A stretch of 64,000 bases of DNA from Candidatus Zixiibacteriota bacterium (GTDB lineage Bacteria > Zixibacteria > MSB-5A5 > GN15 > FEB-12): positions 169,260-233,259 of the forward strand of contig JBFLZR010000003.1 of assembly GCA_040756055.1 (NCBI GenBank), read 5' to 3'. The position numbers were made by a program, and so were the translations under genes. Positions 28,830-44,082 of the stretch are shown here, one piece after another. The notes beneath the pieces are model-generated. The model was given only the letters and a program-made list of their open reading frames with translations, searched no databases and had not been told where the DNA came from. How positions within the stretch are numbered: position 1 is the stretch's first letter; each line of letters starts with the position of its first letter.

Positions 28830-30110
28830 TTACTTGTTGATCTGAGCCTTGATCCAGGCCGTGCTGACTGATTTCGGACGAGTAATGGCCGTACCCAGGG
28901 CGCGGTTGAGCACCAGCTGAGCCAGCATACCCATCGAACGGGACACCGAGAACAGAACGGTGTAGTAATCGAATTCCTTAATTCCGGCTTCGTACAGAAG
29001 AGCGCCGGAACCGGCATCGACGTTCGGCCACGGGTTCTTGGCCTTGCCCTGAGCCTGAAGTACCTTCGGAACGACATTGAAGACACGGTCGACAGTCTGG
29101 AAGACCGGGTTGTTCTTGAGATACTTCTTGCCGAAGCCGTTGAAAGCGGTAAACCGCGGATCAGTGACACGCAATACGGCATGGCCGTATCCCGGGATGA
29201 CCTTACCACTGTTGAGGGTTTCCCATGCGTAATCTTCAATCTGCTTCTCACTCGGAGCGCCGCCGAATTTCTCCATCGTCTGGAGAATCCAGTTAAGACA
29301 TTCCTGATTGGCCAGACCATGCAGAGGGCCGGCCAGACCGTTCAAACCCGCTGACACAGCGTAATACGGATCCGAGAGGGCCGAACCAACGGTATGACAG
29401 GTAAACGCCGACACGTTACCACCCTCGTGGTCGGTGTGCAGCGTCAGATACAAACGCATCATTTCATAGTTCTGACCCTTGCGCGACGGCAAACCGAGCA
29501 TCTTGGCATAGTCCGCGCCCCAGTCGAGCTTGTTGGACGGCTCGATCAGGTCACCCTTCTTGTACTTGATGCGATAGACGCCGGCCGCGATGGTGTGGAT
29601 GGTTGCGATAATTTTGATGGCATCGGCCAGAGCCGGTTCCCAGTATTCCGTTTTCGCCATACCGGCGTCATACTGTTTGCGGAACTGTGACTCGTTCTCC
29701 ATAGCCAGAATTGCCGTGTCGAGCATAGCCATCGGATGCGAGGTCTTCGGCATCGCCTTGAGAACTTTCCAAACATAGTTCGGAACCTCACCGGCGGCCT
29801 TCAGTTCCTTTTGGAACAATTTGAGCTCTTCCTCGGAAGGGAGCTCACCGGTGATCAACAACCAGAAGATTTCTTCAGGAAGTTTATCCTGAATCTTGAG
29901 AATCGGCTTGCCACGAATAATCAAACCCTGATCCGGTTCTACGACGGACGTATCGCAAATCATCCCCTTAACGCCGCGCATGCCGCCGAACGCCTGAGCA
30001 ATAGTAACCTCGGAGATAACTTTATCACCGTGGTTCTTCAGAATATCAGCTCTCTCTTCGCGGAGTTTGGGAATAATACCGGCCAGTGTTTCTTTCAAAG
30101 TTTTGGCCAT
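28830..30110 (-). CDS. gltA: Citrate synthase, mitochondrial/eukaryotic type
   Basis: 426 residues. Condenses oxaloacetate and acetyl-CoA to citrate. The sequence follows the mitochondrial type rather than the common bacterial types: MICDTSVVEPDQGLIIRG, YLTLHTDHEGGNVSAFT (substrate His region), GPLHGLANQE (catalytic His), GYGHAVLRVTDPR, and NVDAGSGALL (catalytic Asp). AAGGAG lies just upstream of ATG 30110. A strong promoter with a CRP/FNR-type palindrome over the start site controls it. The direction (Si or Re, synthesis or cleavage) cannot be decided here. Confidence 0.93.
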   Translation of the reverse strand: MAKTLKETLAGIIPKLREERADILKNHGDKVISEVTIAQAFGGMRGVKGMICDTSVVEPDQGLIIRGKPILKIQDKLPEEIFWLLITGELPSEEELKLFQKELKAAGEVPNYVWKVLKAMPKTSHPMAMLDTAILAMENESQFRKQYDAGMAKTEYWEPALADAIKIIATIHTIAAGVYRIKYKKGDLIEPSNKLDWGADYAKMLGLPSRKGQNYEMMRLYLTLHTDHEGGNVSAFTCHTVGSALSDPYYAVSAGLNGLAGPLHGLANQECLNWILQTMEKFGGAPSEKQIEDYAWETLNSGKVIPGYGHAVLRVTDPRFTAFNGFGKKYLKNNPVFQTVDRVFNVVPKVLQAQGKAKNPWPNVDAGSGALLYEAGIKEFDYYTVLFSVSRSMGMLAQLVLNRALGTAITRPKSVSTAWIKAQINK

Positions 30111-32041: not shown

Positions 32042-33895
32042 TCATCCATACCGCCAGCCCCGGTCGCGTGCCAACCGGGCGTTAGGTTTCCAGTCGGTCA
32101 GTTTGGCTGCCGGCTTGTCCTTGGGCGGCGGAGGTGTTGTCTTCTTCGTCGAAGCCATCGAGACCTTGGTTTCGGACTCTGGAGCTATGCTGTAGGAATC
32201 CTCGGCGGCGCGAATAATCTCCGCCATCAGACCCTCTTCGGCCACCTTCTCCGTGAAAGCCCGGCGACCGTTGACGAGATCGCGAAGATAGTAGTCTATC
32301 TGATCTTTTGAATAGTAATGTTCCGGCACATACTGGCTCAGGTCCGCGCCCTCCGCTGAGACAATCACCTCGGTTCCAAAAAGACTGGGGGCATACTGGT
32401 TGGTGCTGCGAAGGTCTCCGCGCTGGATAGCGGCCATGGTGTTTATGGGCACGCGTTCGGTTTTGCGCACCATCTTTTTGGCGCCGCTCTCGCTGAGCTC
32501 GATAATCTCGCCCATACCACCGGTGTTATACTGATAAAAAGAGACCTTGTCCGGATAATTGGAGACCAGTTCCATGACAATCCGGTAGAACAGGTTTACC
32601 TTGGCGGCTCGTGACCCGACAATAAACGGATCCGTCCCAACCGTGCGCACCGATTCTCCCGCCTTGGCCGGATTCGATGCGTAGCTGTGGCTCGACTCTC
32701 CCCACAGATAAGCCAGCACCGCCTGCATCGGCGTCAGACGTTGCGAGAACGACATAATCGTATTACGGCGGGTAATAAACGCAAACACCAAACCATCCAA
32801 CTCGTCCAGAGGCGGAAGGTCGTACGAGGGATACCAGATGTCCTTCATCGCGAACGGTCCCCAGCCGCGCTTGATCTTGAGCTGCTTTTTCATCACCACC
32901 GCGCGGCCGTTACCGCACAGGTTTTCATCGAGAAAATCAGGCGCTCCTCTGGAGTCGATCATGACATTCTCATAAAGCGCGCTCTTGTGAACAAGGGAGT
33001 TGTACATCGCTTCCTGAAGTTTGGAGTCCACATCGGTTTTGACGAAGAAGTTGGCCTCGGAACCGAAAGCCGCGCCGTCGTTCTTCAGAAAACAGATATC
33101 ATCCTGGCAAACCAGCGTCCGCTCGCCCTTGCTCCAGTCCAACCCGAGTTGGTGACATGACCAGGTGCTCTTACCCGTCGCGGAAAGCCCGAACAAAAAC
33201 ACTCCGTACTTCTTAAGCTTGTTAGTTTTCGGGTCCTTTATGATTACGACCTTCGTACCCGCGTGAAGCCCCAGCATTCCCAGTTTGTCGGCGCCGAACA
33301 TGCCGTTGCGTAAAAATCCCTTTTTGTCCTCGCCCATATAATCCGAGCCAAGAACCATGGTGAGATTATAGTCGGGAAGGACAAGCGCCTGCTGGCGAAT
33401 CTGATGTTCTTCGGGAATGTGTATCAGGGTGAACTCCGGCCCCGGGTCTTTCGTGATTGGCCCCATGGTGTGTCCCCACATATAAGCCAACCTGTGATTT
33501 TTTGGGTCGGCGATCGACATGTAAAGATTACACTTGGGATTGTACTCGGAATTCCGGCCCATCTGGCGACGAAGACGAACGAAAGGCATCGTCTCCATCA
33601 GGTGTAGCACCTTGTCCAGCTCGTCCGGCGCTTTGGATATGATCTGTTTCTTGCCGTCGGCAAGATGGTACTCGCGGACTTTCTCCGAGCCGAGCACGAC
33701 CGTCTTTTCGGCGATACGGCTGGAAACCATCGAGCGCCAGCCCCAGGAACCGTAAGTGGTTTGCCTGCCGGTTGCGACCGCCGGCTCACGCAACTCCTCG
33801 AGAGTTACGTCCTTTATGTTTGGCCCGTTCAGGCGCCGCTGAAGGTCACGATAAAAACGGGCGTAAATTTCAGTTTGATATATTGAATCTGACAT
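32042..33895 (-). CDS. Phosphoenolpyruvate carboxykinase-like protein, divergent ATP type
   Basis: 617 residues, longer than usual ATP-PEPCKs. The kinase-1a loop is FGLSATGKST (236-244 region), the metal-binding kinase-2 acids are D265 and D266 (CQDDICF where GDDEH is usual), and the segments FFVKTDVDS, ENVMIDS, QRLTPMQAVLAYLWG and YNTGGMGE follow the order of the ATP-PEPCK fold. The expected reaction is oxaloacetate plus nucleoside triphosphate to PEP and CO2. About 80 extra residues lie at the C terminus, partly Pro- and Lys-rich. It is the last gene of the flotillin/aminotransferase-fusion/ndk operon. Nucleotide preference is not certain. Confidence 0.78.
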   Translation of the reverse strand: MSDSIYQTEIYARFYRDLQRRLNGPNIKDVTLEELREPAVATGRQTTYGSWGWRSMVSSRIAEKTVVLGSEKVREYHLADGKKQIISKAPDELDKVLHLMETMPFVRLRRQMGRNSEYNPKCNLYMSIADPKNHRLAYMWGHTMGPITKDPGPEFTLIHIPEEHQIRQQALVLPDYNLTMVLGSDYMGEDKKGFLRNGMFGADKLGMLGLHAGTKVVIIKDPKTNKLKKYGVFLFGLSATGKSTWSCHQLGLDWSKGERTLVCQDDICFLKNDGAAFGSEANFFVKTDVDSKLQEAMYNSLVHKSALYENVMIDSRGAPDFLDENLCGNGRAVVMKKQLKIKRGWGPFAMKDIWYPSYDLPPLDELDGLVFAFITRRNTIMSFSQRLTPMQAVLAYLWGESSHSYASNPAKAGESVRTVGTDPFIVGSRAAKVNLFYRIVMELVSNYPDKVSFYQYNTGGMGEIIELSESGAKKMVRKTERVPINTMAAIQRGDLRSTNQYAPSLFGTEVIVSAEGADLSQYVPEHYYSKDQIDYYLRDLVNGRRAFTEKVAEEGLMAEIIRAAEDSYSIAPESETKVSMASTKKTTPPPPKDKPAAKLTDWKPNARLARDRGWRYG

Positions 33896-33901
33896 TTCGA
33901 T

Positions 33902-34324
33902 TTATTCCTTGGGCAATATGTCATCATCTTTAAAAAAGAACGCAACTTCAGTCTTGGCCGTTGCACTGCTATCCGAACCGTGGACAACGTTCTTCTCCAC
34001 AGAAGTGCCAAACTCGCGCCTAATGGTGCTATACTTGGCCTTGGCAGGGTCGGTAGCGCCCATCAATTCACGCCAGCGCTCAATAGAACCATGACCGCCC
34101 AGCACCATCACGACAATCGGGCCGGATGTCATGAACTCCACCAGCGATTTATAGAACGGCTTCGCCTCATGGACAGCATAAAACTGCTCAGCCTGAGCTT
34201 TACTCAGCTTGAGCACCCGCATGCCGCGAATAACCAGTCCGGCGCTTTCAATCTTGCTGATAATCTTACCCACCAGCTTACGTTTGACGCCGTCCGGCTT
34301 TATTATTCCGAGTGTGTTTGCCAT
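33902..34324 (-). CDS. ndk: Nucleoside diphosphate kinase
   Basis: 140 residues, complete. Equilibrates nucleoside triphosphate pools by phosphohistidine ping-pong. The catalytic His is H115 in NVVHGSDS; the N terminus LGIIKPDGVKR and the SGPIVVMVL core are typical. It lies six bases before the PEPCK start and nine bases after the fusion gene, so one transcript carries all three. That arrangement could match the nucleotide supply of the PEPCK-type enzymes. Confidence 0.96.
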   Translation of the reverse strand: MANTLGIIKPDGVKRKLVGKIISKIESAGLVIRGMRVLKLSKAQAEQFYAVHEAKPFYKSLVEFMTSGPIVVMVLGGHGSIERWRELMGATDPAKAKYSTIRREFGTSVEKNVVHGSDSSATAKTEVAFFFKDDDILPKE

Positions 34325-34333
34325 GTCAACCTC

Positions 34334-36679
34334 CTAGCCAACCAATTCTTTGATTCGTGACTTCAGAGCTTCCGGCGGAATCGCGGCGATATTAACCTTG
34401 AACGCCTTGGCCACTCGGAATAACTGATGGAAATTACGTCTTTGCAGATCGACCTGATCCACCGACGAACCGAGCATATACGGATTGAAGAAAGGCTGTG
34501 TCTTAAACGGAGTCATGCCGGCTCCCGAAGCAAGACGATACTTGCCCTCGGTGACGTACTCCAGCGCCGATGCTTCGTCCAGCTTTTGAATGGCCGGGGA
34601 ATTCGGCTCATAGCAAAGCATGGCTACCGCTTTAAGACGGCTGCGTTTCACATACCGTTCCGGTCCGCCGATCCACGACGGATCGACCAGCGCGCGGGAA
34701 ACATCCGAACCCCAGTAGCAATAAGGTTCGCCAAGGTCCAGAGGACACTCGTCTTCAAGCGCCTTCATGTTGGTCCAATCGGCCCGGTTTGTCACCACGT
34801 TCTCGCACTTGCTCCGGTCGAAGATTCTCCCGTAACGCGGGAATTTCTCGGTGATATCGGTCTTCAGATAGAACTTTCGCTCCGGAGCGTCAGCCACCGC
34901 CTCGTTGCCCCGGTAACGAACGAACACCCAGTCGTTGGTCAAAAAGCGGGCTTTGTCGTCCTCTAAGAGACGGAAAAACGTCGAACCGCGCTTGAGTCCT
35001 TTCGGGCCTATCAGCGCCAGTCCCTTTCCGTTGTAATCGACACAGGCAGCCCGGATACCGTGAACATCGAGAAGTCTCTCGCTGGCCTGAGCCACCATGC
35101 CCAGCGCCCAACTGCGAACCTGACCGTAATAACTGGTGTTGAACAGAATGGCCGTCCGCATATCCGGGTTGTAGTAACCAAAAGGCGTTCTACCCGGGAC
35201 ACCATCGACAGCATAGATGATACCGTGCGGTTCGAGGTCCGACTCGAGCTGCGCCGGATACCAGTTCTCCACCCAGAAATCGTACAAGTGCGGTACATTG
35301 GTGCGAAGCTGAATAATTATGCCGTTGATATTCGCGTTCCACTCGAAATAGCGATCATAAGGCAGGGAAGCCTCCGCTTCCTGCACCAGGGCATCGCGTT
35401 CCTCGACGGAAACATCATATTTCGCTTCGACATTGGCGCGCGGGTGAGTCATGACATTCTGAAGAGCCACACGCTTGTACTTGGGCGACTCCTTAAGTTT
35501 TGCCATGGCTTCGATAATCCGGTCGGTGCCTTCTTCGATCTTATCCATCGAGGTAGCGTACGACAAACGAATATTGTCTTCCGCCCCGAAAGCGCTTCCC
35601 GGTACGATCGCCACAGCGGCTTCTTTTAGAAGGTAGTATGAGAGGCCGTAGGAATTACGAATCTTCATGCCGCCGTACTCCGTGTTGTAGTAGGCCGAAG
35701 TGTTGGGGAAGAGGTAGAACGCTCCTTTTGGCTCGAAACACGAAATATCCGGTATCCGTCTCAACTTACTGAGCATGTAATTGCGGCGTGCGCTGAACTC
35801 GGCCACCATCTGATTTATTTCGCTCTGATGGCCGCTCAGCGCCTCGGCGGCTGCCTTCTGTGCGATCGAATTCGGGTTTGATGTCGCATGCGACTGAATT
35901 ATATCCATCGCGTTGATTATCTCTCGCGGTCCGGCGGCAAAACCAATGCGCCATCCGGTCATCGAATACGACTTCGAAACACCGTTGATAACAACAGTCT
36001 TCTCTTTGATTTTATCGCTCAAAGATGCGATCGAATGGAAACGGTATCCATCGTAAACAACCTTCTCGTAGATTTCATCCGCTACAATAAGCAGTCCTTC
36101 GGCGACCGCGACCTCGCACAGCTCCATAAGCTGGTCGCGAGTATAGGTAGCCCCGGTCGGGTTGGCCGGGTTGTTTATGATTACCGCTTTGGTATTGAAA
36201 TTTATATTGGCCTTGAGCTCTTCGGGCGTCAGCCTGAATCCATTGTCCTCGCGGGTGGGGACAATGACCGGTTTGCCTTTTACCATCAAAACCTGCTGAG
36301 GATACGATACCCAATACGGAGCCGGAATGATTACTTCCTCGTCCTTGTTGAGAATAGCCATCATCAGGTTGTAAAGGCTGTGCTTGGCGCCGCACGATAC
36401 GATAATCTCTTTCGGCTTATACTCCAGCCCGTGGTCTTCTTTCAAACGGGCGCGGATGGCTTCCTTAAGCTCCGGAATACCGTCATTGGGAGTATAGCCG
36501 GTAAAATTATCGTCAATCGCCTTCTTGCCGGCTTCTTTGATATCGGCCGGAGTAGGGAAGTCCGGTTCGCCGACAGAGAAGTCGATGACATCAATGCCCG
36601 ACGCTTTCATGGCCTTGGCTTTGGCATTGATGCGGAGAGTAGGAGAGAGCTCTAAACGGCCTATCCTGTTGGAAATCAT
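34334..36679 (-). CDS. Aspartate aminotransferase fused to a PEPCK/HprK-like domain
   Basis: 781 residues in one uninterrupted frame. Residues 1-395 are a complete class I aminotransferase: NPANPTG near 170-176, DEIY at 201-204 and the PLP lysine K236 in GVSKSYSMTGWR. Residues about 440-780 form a second domain with a P-loop-like GPKGLKRGST (558-567), acids near TND (581-583), and an FYLKTDITEK...ENV pattern that echoes FFVKTDVDSK...ENV in the PEPCK downstream. This suggests the HprK/PEPCK kinase superfamily, though key PEPCK residues differ. Aminotransferase product oxaloacetate is a PEPCK substrate, so channelling is attractive but inferred. The AAGGAA SD overlaps the flotillin stop. Confidence 0.8.
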   Translation of the reverse strand: MISNRIGRLELSPTLRINAKAKAMKASGIDVIDFSVGEPDFPTPADIKEAGKKAIDDNFTGYTPNDGIPELKEAIRARLKEDHGLEYKPKEIIVSCGAKHSLYNLMMAILNKDEEVIIPAPYWVSYPQQVLMVKGKPVIVPTREDNGFRLTPEELKANINFNTKAVIINNPANPTGATYTRDQLMELCEVAVAEGLLIVADEIYEKVVYDGYRFHSIASLSDKIKEKTVVINGVSKSYSMTGWRIGFAAGPREIINAMDIIQSHATSNPNSIAQKAAAEALSGHQSEINQMVAEFSARRNYMLSKLRRIPDISCFEPKGAFYLFPNTSAYYNTEYGGMKIRNSYGLSYYLLKEAAVAIVPGSAFGAEDNIRLSYATSMDKIEEGTDRIIEAMAKLKESPKYKRVALQNVMTHPRANVEAKYDVSVEERDALVQEAEASLPYDRYFEWNANINGIIIQLRTNVPHLYDFWVENWYPAQLESDLEPHGIIYAVDGVPGRTPFGYYNPDMRTAILFNTSYYGQVRSWALGMVAQASERLLDVHGIRAACVDYNGKGLALIGPKGLKRGSTFFRLLEDDKARFLTNDWVFVRYRGNEAVADAPERKFYLKTDITEKFPRYGRIFDRSKCENVVTNRADWTNMKALEDECPLDLGEPYCYWGSDVSRALVDPSWIGGPERYVKRSRLKAVAMLCYEPNSPAIQKLDEASALEYVTEGKYRLASGAGMTPFKTQPFFNPYMLGSSVDQVDLQRRNFHQLFRVAKAFKVNIAAIPPEALKSRIKELVG

Positions 36680-36682
36680 CTC

Positions 36683-38089
36683 TTATTCCTTATCCGGGCC
36701 GGTTTTCGTCTTGCGCGGTGATTCGCTCTTTTCCTCTGTTTGTTTGTCAGCCAGCTTCTTGATCCAGTCTTCCAGATCAAAACCCGACAGTGACTTTACT
36801 ACCGTAGGCAACTGGCTCATCATGGTCGCCAGTTCGCCGGTAATCTTCGATGTGCCCAGCTTGCCGTCGTTGGACACCATAACGATCTTCTCTATCTTGG
36901 ATATCGGGGCGGCCATCTCGCGGGCCAGATCAGGAAGCTTCTCGAACATCATTTGAAGCATCGCCGGCTGCGAATAAGAATTCCACGATTCAGCCTTCAT
37001 GCGCAGAGCTTCAGCTTCGGCATGGCCGACCTTCTCGACAAGCTCAGCTTCAATCAGGCCCTGCACCCGCTTGGCTTCCGCCATGCCTTTGGCTTCGGCC
37101 TCAAGACGGTACTGCTCTGCCGCGGCAGGCTTGCGAACTTTCGCTTCAAGCTCCTGCTCGACACGGGCGATCTCTCTTTTTTCCAGCTCGATAGCCGCGT
37201 CTTTTTCAATCAGCTTAACCTTGGCTTCCTCGGCCTTCAGTTCCTGGTTGAGTTTGTGTCTTTCCAACTCATAGGCGAAATCGGCATCGGCTTTTTTGCG
37301 ATTGAGTTCCTTTTGTAGGTCGGTTTTCTTCAGTTCAAAGTCCTGATTGGCCTTGGCGACCGCCGTGTCGGCGACCAACTTGGCAATGTCCCCTTCTTTC
37401 TTCGCTTCGGCCGACTTGATGATGGCGTCGCGAGCCGCTTCAGCCTCGGCGACTTCAGCGTCCCGGCGGGCCTGAACAATCCGCGGCTTACCGAGAGCTT
37501 CGAGGTAACCCGATGGATCGGTGATTTCTTTGAGGTTGTAAGACTGAAGTTTCAATCCCATGTTGGCGAAATAAGCGGATACATCCTCGAATATCTTGTT
37601 CGCGAAATCCTTGCGGCCCTTGTTGAGCGACTCCAGATTCATCGTACCTATCAACGCGCGAGTCGAACCTTCAAGAGTGCGAAGAGCTACATCGCGAATC
37701 TCCGATATCGGTCTTCCCAGAAATTGTTCGGCGGCCAGATGAATCGATGCTTCATCTCCGGCGATCTTTACCTCGGCCGTACCCTTAACAGTCGACCGGA
37801 TACCGTTGGTTGCTATCGCATCCTCGACGACAAAAGACATGGGAATGATCTCGAGCGGCAGTATCTGAGCCTGCTCGATGAACGGCTTGACAAAAGTACC
37901 GCCGCCGATGCGGATCCGGTAACCTACTTCCTTAGTGGTGCCATCGGCCAGCGTTACCTGACGCTTCTTGCCACCGGAAATTATCAGCACCTCATTGGGA
38001 CCGACTTTGCGGTAATTTTTCAGTACGATTATCAATACAGCCGCGATTACGACTACAACTGCGATTACTGTAATTATAAGGGGACTCAC
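36683..38089 (-). CDS. Flotillin-like SPFH/band 7 membrane protein
   Basis: 468 residues from a GTG at 38089, which has GAGGAG nine bases upstream. A more upstream TTG at 38137 would add 16 residues before the membrane helix and has no SD. One N-terminal transmembrane helix (ITVIAVVVVIAAVLIIVLKN), an SPFH domain (KVGPNEVLIISGG onward), then a long Ala/Glu/Lys coiled coil (about 215-370) as in flotillins, and a conserved C-terminal part (VMVSNDG, SQLPTVV). Flotillins scaffold membrane microdomains. It leads the operon with the aminotransferase fusion, ndk and PEPCK, an unexpected pairing. Confidence 0.88.
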   Translation of the reverse strand: MSPLIITVIAVVVVIAAVLIIVLKNYRKVGPNEVLIISGGKKRQVTLADGTTKEVGYRIRIGGGTFVKPFIEQAQILPLEIIPMSFVVEDAIATNGIRSTVKGTAEVKIAGDEASIHLAAEQFLGRPISEIRDVALRTLEGSTRALIGTMNLESLNKGRKDFANKIFEDVSAYFANMGLKLQSYNLKEITDPSGYLEALGKPRIVQARRDAEVAEAEAARDAIIKSAEAKKEGDIAKLVADTAVAKANQDFELKKTDLQKELNRKKADADFAYELERHKLNQELKAEEAKVKLIEKDAAIELEKREIARVEQELEAKVRKPAAAEQYRLEAEAKGMAEAKRVQGLIEAELVEKVGHAEAEALRMKAESWNSYSQPAMLQMMFEKLPDLAREMAAPISKIEKIVMVSNDGKLGTSKITGELATMMSQLPTVVKSLSGFDLEDWIKKLADKQTEEKSESPRKTKTGPDKE

Positions 38090-38154
38090 GATCACAATCT
38101 CCTCTGCAATGATTTCCGGACGGTAGCCTTCCGCCAAAATTTAGTGAAACTGAG

Positions 38155-38279: not shown

Positions 38280-39272
38280 CTATCCCTTCATCAGAACGGC
38301 AATTGCCGAAACATCAACAATATCGCCCGCCGAACAGCCGCGCGACAGGTCGTTGGCCGGTTTGGCCAATCCCTGGATAATCGGGCCTGTGGCCGTGGCT
38401 TTCGCCAGCCGCTGGGTCAGCTTGTACGCGATATTGCCCGCATCAAGGTCCGGGAAAATCAGCACATTGGCCTGACCGGCAATCTCACTGCCCGGAGCCT
38501 TACTCTTAGCGACTTCAGGCACGATAGCGGCGTCAACCTGAAGCTCACCGTCAACCTTCAACTCCGGATGTTCTTTCTTGAGAATCTCCAGAGCTGTTGT
38601 CACCTTCGTGACATCCGAATGCTGCGCCGACCCCTTGGTCGAGAACGATAGCATAGCGATCTTGGGCTCCATACCCAGTAGATTGCGCATCGACTCGGCT
38701 GTCGAAACGGCGATTGACGCCAGTTGTTCGGCTGTCGGGTTCGGAACCACCGCGCCATCGGCATAAAAGAATATCTTGTCCTTCTCACCGCGGTATTCCG
38801 GAACCGTCATCATAAAGAAACTGGAAACCGTGCTGATACCCGGCTTAAGGCCTATTACCTGTATTCCCGCTCTGAGAACATCACCGGTAGTGTTTACCGC
38901 GCCGGCCACCGAAGCGTCGACCTTGTCGTGCCTGACCATCATCGCCCCGAAATAGAGTGTGTTGGCCAAAGTCGCGCGGGCTTCTTGCGCCGAGACTTTG
39001 CGTTTCTTGCGCAGCTCCACAAAATCGGCAACATAGGTTTCAAAATCCGGTGATTCGACAGGATTGATGACTTCCACGGTGGCAAGATCCAACCCGTGCT
39101 CTTTGGCCAGCCCGGCGATCACTTTCGTGTCACCAAGAATCGTGACCTTGGCGATTTTCTCGGCCACGATTACTCTGGCCGCCTGTATCGTCCTTGGCTC
39201 TGTCCCTTCCGGAAGCACCACCCGACGATTCTTTTCTCTGGCTTTGTCCTTTATAATAGATAAGGCGTTCAT
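38280..39272 (-). CDS. pta: Phosphate acetyltransferase
   Basis: 330 residues, the short form lacking the N-terminal regulatory domains. Interconverts acetyl-CoA and acetyl phosphate. Signatures: VVLPEGTEPRTIQAARVIV at the N terminus, FSTKGSAQHSDVTKV, DGELQVDAAIVPEVAK, and ANVLIFPDLDAGNIAYKL near the C terminus. With PFOR it would allow acetate formation or assimilation; no acetate kinase gene is in the window. It lies 42 bases after prfB on the same strand. Confidence 0.93.
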   Translation of the reverse strand: MNALSIIKDKAREKNRRVVLPEGTEPRTIQAARVIVAEKIAKVTILGDTKVIAGLAKEHGLDLATVEVINPVESPDFETYVADFVELRKKRKVSAQEARATLANTLYFGAMMVRHDKVDASVAGAVNTTGDVLRAGIQVIGLKPGISTVSSFFMMTVPEYRGEKDKIFFYADGAVVPNPTAEQLASIAVSTAESMRNLLGMEPKIAMLSFSTKGSAQHSDVTKVTTALEILKKEHPELKVDGELQVDAAIVPEVAKSKAPGSEIAGQANVLIFPDLDAGNIAYKLTQRLAKATATGPIIQGLAKPANDLSRGCSAGDIVDVSAIAVLMKG

Positions 39273-42121: not shown

Positions 42122-42712
42122 ATGGTTGCCAGAAAATCCAAAAAACTGCCGCGTTTATTTTATAACCGGCCGACTCTCGAGGTCGCCCGTGACTTGCTCG
42201 GAAAAGTCATCGTTTATAATTCCTCCGAAGGCCGACTTTCGGCAAGAATTGTCGAGGTAGAAGCCTACATAGGCCAGGACGATCCTGCCTGCCACGCCGC
42301 TCGTGGAAAAACCAAAAGAAATGCCGTGATGTTTGGGGAACCCGGACACACTTATGTCTATTTCATATACGGTATGTATTATTGCCTCAACTTTGTGACT
42401 GAACCGGAAAACCAGGCAGCAGCTGTTTTAATTCGCGCGGCCGAGCCTCTTGAGGGAATCGAGATCATGGAACAGAATTCTCCTCGAAGCACCGAGCAAC
42501 TCCTGCTGTCCGGCCCGGGAAAATTCTGCCGGTCGTTCGGACTGACCCGCGAGCACAACGGCCTCGATCTTACGGGAGATATTATCTACATCGAAGATCA
42601 TCCGGACAGACCTGCGAGAATCGTCACCACACCGCGCATTGGTATCAATAACGCCCGCGATAAAAAGTGGCGCTTCTGCGATGCTTCGTCGCCGGCGCTC
42701 TCAAGAAAATGA
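42122..42712 (+). CDS. mpg: 3-methyladenine (alkyladenine) DNA glycosylase, AAG/MPG type
   Basis: 196 residues from ATG 42122. Base-excision repair enzyme that removes alkylated purines. The sequence RLFYNRPTLEVARDLLGKV, VEVEAYIGQDDPACHA (with the catalytic Glu), the VYFIYGMYYCLNFVT segment and the LLSGPGKFCRSFGL block follow the AAG fold. Longer reading to 41954 would overlap the PHP gene and is rejected. The last residues (about 185-196) are Ser/Lys-rich. Confidence 0.9.
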   Translation: MVARKSKKLPRLFYNRPTLEVARDLLGKVIVYNSSEGRLSARIVEVEAYIGQDDPACHAARGKTKRNAVMFGEPGHTYVYFIYGMYYCLNFVTEPENQAAAVLIRAAEPLEGIEIMEQNSPRSTEQLLLSGPGKFCRSFGLTREHNGLDLTGDIIYIEDHPDRPARIVTTPRIGINNARDKKWRFCDASSPALSRK

Positions 42713-42747
42713 AAACAAAAAATATCACCATACAGAGGTGTTCAAAG

Positions 42748-44082
42748 ATGCCCAGGAAAACAACTACCACTAAAACCAGAAAAACGGCTCGGCCAACCGA
42801 ACACAGCAAGAGCGTCGTTTCCGTGAAAAACACCATGATACCGATTTCGGTGTTTGGCAACGTCCTCAAGCAGTTCGAAGCGGCCGCCCAAAAGCTCCAC
42901 CTGGATCCGTCCCTGAAGGAATTCATGAAGATACCCCGGCGGAGCACCATAGTAAATCTGCCGGTGCGCATGGACGATGGTACCTACAAAATGTTCACCG
43001 GCTACCGCGTTCAGCACTCAATAGCGAGGGGACCGGCCAAAGGCGGCATCAGGTATCATCCTGATGTTACCCTCGATGAAGTCCAGGCTCTTGCCGCCTG
43101 GATGACCTGGAAAAGCGCTGTCGTAAACATTCCCTTCGGCGGCGGCAAAGGCGGGATTGTCTGTGACCCGCAAAAACTCTCCGAGGGAGAACTCGAAAGA
43201 CTCACTCGCCGCTATGTGGCTGACCTGATGAAGATATTTGGCCCCGATGATGACATTCCGGCTCCCGATGTCGGCACCGGTCCGAGAGTGATGGCCTGGT
43301 TCATGGATACCTATTCCATGCGTGAAAACCACTCCGTGCCTGCTTCCGTTACCGGCAAGCCCACGGTGTTGGGCGGCTCGCTCGGACGCACTGAGGCCAC
43401 CGGCCGCGGTGTTATGCTCACTACCCGCGAGGCCGCAAAGCACTTGAAACTCGATCTCTCCAGGGCTACGGCCTCCGTACAGGGTTTCGGAAATGTCGGC
43501 TCTATCTCAGCCAAACTGCTTCACGAACACGGTGTGAAGTTTCTTTACGTTTCCGATGTAACCGGCGCGATTCACAATCCTGATGGTATCGATATTCCGG
43601 AAATGATTGCTTATGCGGCAAAGAAAAGGAGCATCCTTGGTTTTCCGGGAACCAAAAAGATCGATCCGGCAGAAGTTCTCAGCGCCAAAGTTGATATTCT
43701 CATCCCGGCAGCGCTCGAAAATCAAATAACCGCAGCCAACGCTCAGAAGGTCAACGCCCGGATCGTAGCCGAAGGCGCCAACGGTCCGGTCACGCCCGAG
43801 GCAGACGCCATTTTGGAGAAAAAGAAAATAATGGTCATACCCGACATACTCTGCAACGCCGGCGGTGTGACGGTTTCATATTTCGAATGGGTCCAGAATC
43901 GCATCGGCTACTCGTGGACGGAGGAAGAAGTCAACCGAAGGCTCGAAGAGAAAATGGTTGCGGCTTTCAAGGATGTGCTCACGATCTCACTCGAGCACAA
44001 GACCAGCCTAAGAATCGCGGCCTTTATGCTGGCTATCACCCGGGTTGCCGAGGTCATTCAACTGCGCGGTATCTACGCATAG
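42748..44082 (+). CDS. gdhA: Glu/Leu/Phe/Val dehydrogenase (glutamate dehydrogenase)
   Basis: 444 residues from ATG 42748, with AGAGGTG upstream; an earlier in-frame start would overlap the glycosylase gene. The first 30 residues are a Lys/Thr/Arg-rich extension. Catalytic region PAKGGIRYHPDVTLDEV and NIPFGGGKGGI (active-site Lys), dinucleotide-binding VQGFGNVGS, and CNAGGVTVSYFEWVQN follow the family. It interconverts glutamate and 2-oxoglutarate, complementing the aminotransferase. A strong terminator follows. Confidence 0.93.
   Translation: MPRKTTTTKTRKTARPTEHSKSVVSVKNTMIPISVFGNVLKQFEAAAQKLHLDPSLKEFMKIPRRSTIVNLPVRMDDGTYKMFTGYRVQHSIARGPAKGGIRYHPDVTLDEVQALAAWMTWKSAVVNIPFGGGKGGIVCDPQKLSEGELERLTRRYVADLMKIFGPDDDIPAPDVGTGPRVMAWFMDTYSMRENHSVPASVTGKPTVLGGSLGRTEATGRGVMLTTREAAKHLKLDLSRATASVQGFGNVGSISAKLLHEHGVKFLYVSDVTGAIHNPDGIDIPEMIAYAAKKRSILGFPGTKKIDPAEVLSAKVDILIPAALENQITAANAQKVNARIVAEGANGPVTPEADAILEKKKIMVIPDILCNAGGVTVSYFEWVQNRIGYSWTEEEVNRRLEEKMVAAFKDVLTISLEHKTSLRIAAFMLAITRVAEVIQLRGIYA

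Follow-up and report, generated by a model that had tools for sequence, protein, structure and literature searches.

An aspartate aminotransferase fused to a PEPCK-fold domain in Zixibacteria and other bacteria: a candidate adaptor or sensor encoded beside flotillin and, usually, a separate PEPCK

Oxaloacetate is scarce and unstable, and its transfer between enzymes in bacteria is an old question. The solved class I aspartate aminotransferases (PF00155; 1j32, Thermus 1bjw, plant 5wmh) stop after the aminotransferase domain. The protein described here shares its N-terminal 395 residues with these enzymes, including all cofactor and substrate residues that were checked, but adds ~380 residues of PEPCK fold. 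Over 345 of its 383 residues this addition has the predicted fold of ATP-PEPCK (PF01293; 2pc9, 1aq2), with which it also shares the aspartate that follows the P-loop and an ENV motif. It differs from ATP-PEPCK in its low identity (14%), the lack of a Pfam match, the replacement of Lys213, which is a metal ligand in PEPCK, by serine and of the Walker lysine by arginine, a variable residue at the Arg333 position, and a shorter C-terminal end. The domain also resembles HPr kinase/phosphorylase (PF07475; 1ko7) in sequence around the P-loop, but that resemblance is local and weak, and the domain as a whole fits PEPCK. In the literature searched, which included few subscription papers or preprints, no description was found of the fusion architecture, of flotillin with PEPCK and aspartate aminotransferase, or of such PEPCK-like domains. 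The aminotransferase/PEPCK-fold fusion is widespread in bacteria and apparently undescribed.

The window, the whole 64,000-nucleotide stretch of DNA that was analyzed, derives from a 3.3 Mb Zixibacteria genome whose named close relatives are Candidatus Zixiibacteriota. The fusion and its parts are located as follows.

34334..36679, minus strand: fusion gene of 781 codons, aspartate aminotransferase plus PEPCK-fold domain (open reading frame, full-length same-genus homologues and 78 distinct full-length homologues)
35495..36679, minus strand: aspartate aminotransferase domain, residues 1-395 (PF00155, 261 bits; 1j32, E 6e-106)
35972..35974, minus strand: PLP lysine K236 (lysine in 78/78 homologues)
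34337..35485, minus strand: putative pseudo-PEPCK domain, residues 399-781 (AlphaFold2 pLDDT 90; VIA-align Z 29.6 to ATP-PEPCK; hhalign E 5e-10 to canonical PEPCK)
34979..35008, minus strand: degenerate P-loop GPKGLKRGST, residues 558-567, with R564 at the Walker lysine position (conservation count in 78 homologues)
35111..35113, minus strand: S523, aligned with Lys213, a metal ligand of PEPCK (profile alignment; serine in 61 and lysine in 3 of 78)

The original prediction of one continuous 781-codon frame that joins two domains was confirmed, and the frame, whose strand had not been given, lies on the minus strand. Three genomes of the same genus, each assembled as one contig, contain full-length homologues of the fusion that are 82-86% identical to it; in related genomes, including three single-contig assemblies, full-length identity is 79-86%. 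Other families of the same order carry it as well. This conservation is far beyond chance. An assembly error at the junction had been named as grounds for rejecting the fusion; its intact presence in single-contig genomes and in ~10 phyla or candidate phyla rules out such an artefact.

Relatives of the C-terminal domain were sought in one genome per species across 84,980 species, which yielded at least 145, of which the best 80 were analyzed. The titles of these 80 include Zixibacteria, Aminicenantes/Acidobacteria, Calditrichota, Ignavibacteria/Bacteroidetes, KSB1, Latescibacterota, Gemmatimonadota, TA06, Eisenbacteria and Fischerbacteria. The domain was fused to an aminotransferase in 79 of the 80 loci, and the remaining locus was truncated by a contig end. 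Residue conservation was counted over 78 distinct full-length fusion proteins from many phyla. Within Zixibacteria the fusion was present in 40/132 genomes, with frames of ~780 residues where the contig permits, and within Aminicenantia in 77/142. Stand-alone relatives of the C-terminal domain (574-578 residues) were met only in two Zixibacteria, at L052 4420-6144 (minus strand) and L053 4642-6378 (minus strand); these have an intact Walker A motif (APTGTGKST) and no Pfam match over the cut-off.

The aminotransferase half is complete, as had been predicted from the class I signature and its PLP lysine. The Aminotran_1_2 match spans residues 30-388 and model positions 2-361 of 361, and K236 sits in GVSKSYSMTGWR. 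All of the cofactor, substrate and carboxylate residues checked (K236, D201, Y204, N173, R244, R371 and K99) are invariant in the 78 fusions. Among solved structures the closest relatives are aspartate aminotransferases, with 1j32 as the cited match, and by analogy with these enzymes we infer that aspartate and oxaloacetate are the substrate pair of the domain.

Residues ~400-781 produced no Pfam or NCBIfam match. AlphaFold2 modeling of the C-terminal domain with an alignment of 66 sequences gave a mean pLDDT of 90.1 and a pTM of 0.90; a model built from nine near-identical sequences (pLDDT 38) was discarded. All 50 of the PDB matches listed for the predicted fold were PEPCKs, with Foldseek E-values of about 1e-17. 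In VIA-align the model superposed on the Thermus thermophilus ATP-PEPCK at 3.0 Å over the 345 aligned residues with 14% identity, and Z values against GTP-PEPCKs were 22-24. Independently of the model, the domain profile matched the canonical Zixibacteria PEPCK profile over 344 columns and the profile of the neighboring PEPCK type with E 2.5e-7. Thus, the C-terminal domain is predicted to have the complete ATP-PEPCK fold, and a fold unrelated to PEPCK or HPr kinase, which would have undermined the original prediction, was not obtained. That prediction had described the second domain as PEPCK/HprK-like: the PEPCK component stands, whereas resemblance to HprK in sequence is confined to the vicinity of the P-loop. 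A PDB profile search by sequence alone matched this region to HPr kinase with E about 0.006, which explains why the first reading hesitated between the two families. HprK was missing among the 50 structural matches listed, an absence that does not exclude an HprK fold, and Hpr_kinase_C gave no match in the window protein and at best 19.6 bits in a homologue against a cut-off of 33.3. A match to CIA30 in the PDB search with a shallow profile was attributed to chance, and weak Pfam matches of homologues, including Trefoil, PNPOx_N and AAA_33, to chance or to the P-loop only.

The motifs GPKGLKRGST and FYLKTD...CENV in the C-terminal domain have counterparts in GLSATGKST and FFVKTD...ENV of the PEPCK encoded two genes downstream, in agreement with the shared patterns reported at the outset. 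The Walker lysine position, that of the catalytic Lys254 in the PEPCK P-loop GxxGxGKT, is occupied by lysine in 53, arginine in 24 and serine in one of the 78 homologues, and the window protein is among those with arginine. Profile alignment sets NTSYYGQVRS over GTSYAGEIKK, and therefore S523 is equivalent to Lys213. The Arg333 position retains arginine in 33/78. The equivalent of the metal ligand His232 is H540 by profile alignment or R543 by PDB profile search, and that of the substrate residue Arg65 falls near an unaligned linker. Nearly all of the 78 proteins keep the aspartate after the P-loop and the ENV motif, and the surface-like motifs YFEWNxN, QLRTN and EPH are invariant in 78/78. 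Judged from these residues, the C-terminal domain of the window clade probably is without PEPCK activity. As the P-loop lysine is kept in most homologues, nucleotide binding may persist in those proteins. A correlation between decay of the P-loop and linkage to PEPCK was considered and set aside, since Aminicenantes with an adjacent PEPCK retain the lysine.

Around the fusion, the genes on the minus strand of the window are ordered flotillin, fusion, nucleoside diphosphate kinase and PEPCK.

36683..38137, minus strand: flotillin-like SPFH protein directly upstream of the fusion (PF01145, Band_7, and PF15975, Flot, over cut-off; the true start may lie downstream of the listed TTG)
33902..34324, minus strand: nucleoside diphosphate kinase (PF00334, 182 bits)
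32042..33895, minus strand: separate PEPCK of a divergent ATP type with active-site residues kept (PF01293, 86.9 bits; residues invariant in 29 homologues)

Among the best 80 of at least 145 relatives, a flotillin gene lay directly upstream of the fusion in 68/69 testable loci, with a median gap of 24 bp. In the same set a PEPCK gene was adjacent to the fusion in 59/71 testable loci (53 downstream and 6 divergent upstream), and nucleoside diphosphate kinase was present in 20 loci. K192, H211, K242, D265, D266 and R331 of the neighboring PEPCK correspond to K213, H232, K254, D268/D269 and R333, and by this sequence criterion the enzyme apparently is intact. In one MAG the fusion-adjacent PEPCK (L082 3272-5157) is split over two frames, either through an error in sequencing or because the gene is broken. 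The window also contains citrate synthase (28830-30110) and phosphotransacetylase (38280-39272) genes near the fusion, as well as a glutamate dehydrogenase gene (42667-44082, plus strand) ~6 kb away whose product could recycle the glutamate/2-oxoglutarate pair.

Strong matches to the window-type PEPCK were present in 37 of 132 Zixibacteria genomes, and the fusion was found in 37/37 of these; the 37 include cases in which the two genes are far apart or on different contigs. Fisher tests of this association treat related genomes as independent. The link to the aspartate-oxaloacetate-PEP step that had been proposed from one locus thus is seen in both gene order and co-occurrence. The window-type PEPCK was missing from 3/40 Zixibacteria fusion genomes, and GTP-PEPCK was detected in none of the 40. 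Neither the ATP nor the GTP type was found in two Zixibacteria fusion genomes, G117 (96% complete), which contains locus L071, and G118. Among the 142 Aminicenantia genomes the window-type PEPCK was present in 28, all of which are among the 77 with the fusion. GTP-PEPCK was present in 44 Aminicenantia fusion genomes, two of which have the ATP type too, and neither of the PEPCK types searched for was found in seven. The 44 genomes with GTP-PEPCK indicate that a fixed complex with ATP-type PEPCK is not general, and they weaken the idea of one fixed partner PEPCK for the fusion.

The explanation that we favor, although we put its chance at about even, is that the fusion is an aspartate aminotransferase whose pseudo-PEPCK part, an adaptor or sensor, couples transamination to the PEPCK reaction, with flotillin as the probable scaffold. 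A PEPCK paralogue would have become fused to the aminotransferase, subsequently lost its chemistry and been kept as a docking or sensing module. The N-terminal domain would interconvert aspartate and oxaloacetate, and the C-terminal domain would link the aminotransferase to the separate PEPCK, in the window the enzyme encoded two genes downstream, either by serving as an adaptor or by sensing nucleotides or metabolites. The upstream flotillin would provide a membrane scaffold and, in the window clade, nucleoside diphosphate kinase would manage nucleotides. The arrangement points to a tethered assembly of enzymes more than to a single enzyme with two functions, and flux may run in either direction, from aspartate to PEP or from PEP to aspartate. 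A more specific version, a conserved metabolon in which the dead PEPCK on the aminotransferase docks the live PEPCK, together with a nucleoside diphosphate kinase, on a flotillin platform, allowing oxaloacetate to move from one enzyme to the next at the membrane, is put forward tentatively and is less probable than not. An oxaloacetate-forming enzyme physically fused to a PEPCK-fold domain, beside flotillin and usually a real PEPCK across these phyla, offers a concrete system, open to testing, in which to study metabolite channeling, pseudoenzymes as adaptors in central metabolism and the role of bacterial flotillins as organizers.

One suggestion made initially was that both halves are active, and that aspartate and PEP are channeled within one polypeptide. 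The full PEPCK fold, the consecutive reactions and the P-loop lysine in 53/78 homologues are in keeping with such a bifunctional enzyme, but the metal ligand lysine survives in only three homologues, both it and the Walker lysine are replaced in the window protein, fewer than half of the homologues keep Arg333, and most fusion genomes encode an additional PEPCK that apparently is intact, in the window two genes from the fusion. That the fusion itself makes PEP is very unlikely, and this part of the original prediction found no support. A protein kinase/phosphorylase of the HPr kinase type that acts on flotillin or another partner would fit the P-loop match in the PDB and the weak Hpr_kinase_C matches of homologues; however, the listed structural matches are PEPCKs throughout, Hpr_kinase_C stays below its cut-off and the window clade no longer has the Walker lysine, which together make this activity most improbable.

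Readings without catalysis by the C-terminal domain deserve more weight. Decay of the P-loop in several lineages would be expected if the domain were a structural remnant without metabolic function, helping the aminotransferase only to fold, oligomerize or remain stable, but the long invariant motifs and the conserved flotillin and PEPCK neighbors argue against it, and we regard it as unlikely. An allosteric sensor that binds nucleotide or PEP and controls the aminotransferase without docking PEPCK is a serious minority possibility: the fold, the ENV motif and the aspartate after the P-loop are retained in nearly all homologues, and the fusion also occurs in genomes without ATP-type PEPCK and in a few in which no PEPCK was found. 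This proposal does not account for the close linkage of the fusion to a single PEPCK type in Zixibacteria or for their co-occurrence, and proteins of the window clade have a degenerate P-loop. Fusion genomes that have GTP-PEPCK, or in which no PEPCK was found, speak against one obligatory PEPCK partner and would allow for a sensing function.

Relatives that lack the fusion offer a comparison. In 22/31 non-fusion relatives and in 0/10 fusion genomes, a class I aminotransferase gene and a canonical ATP-PEPCK gene shared a strand and were less than 300 bp apart; the Fisher test of this difference is uncorrected for relatedness. The aminotransferase-PEPCK link thus takes two mutually exclusive forms in this sample. 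Like the fusion, the gene pair links the same two enzyme families genetically, but it specifies separate proteins with a canonical PEPCK, and no pseudo-PEPCK fusion was found in those genomes; the pair likely is an aspartate/PEP operon. The genes are side by side at L156 426-3301, L164 299-3183, L165 260-3142 and in 19 other Zixibacteria genomes, with about 160 bp between the matched stretches. Further divergent PEPCK types occur in fusion-free genomes of Aminicenantia (G245-G249 and G251) and Zixibacteria (G103-G109), with scores of about 400 bits and about 43-53 bits against the window-type profile.
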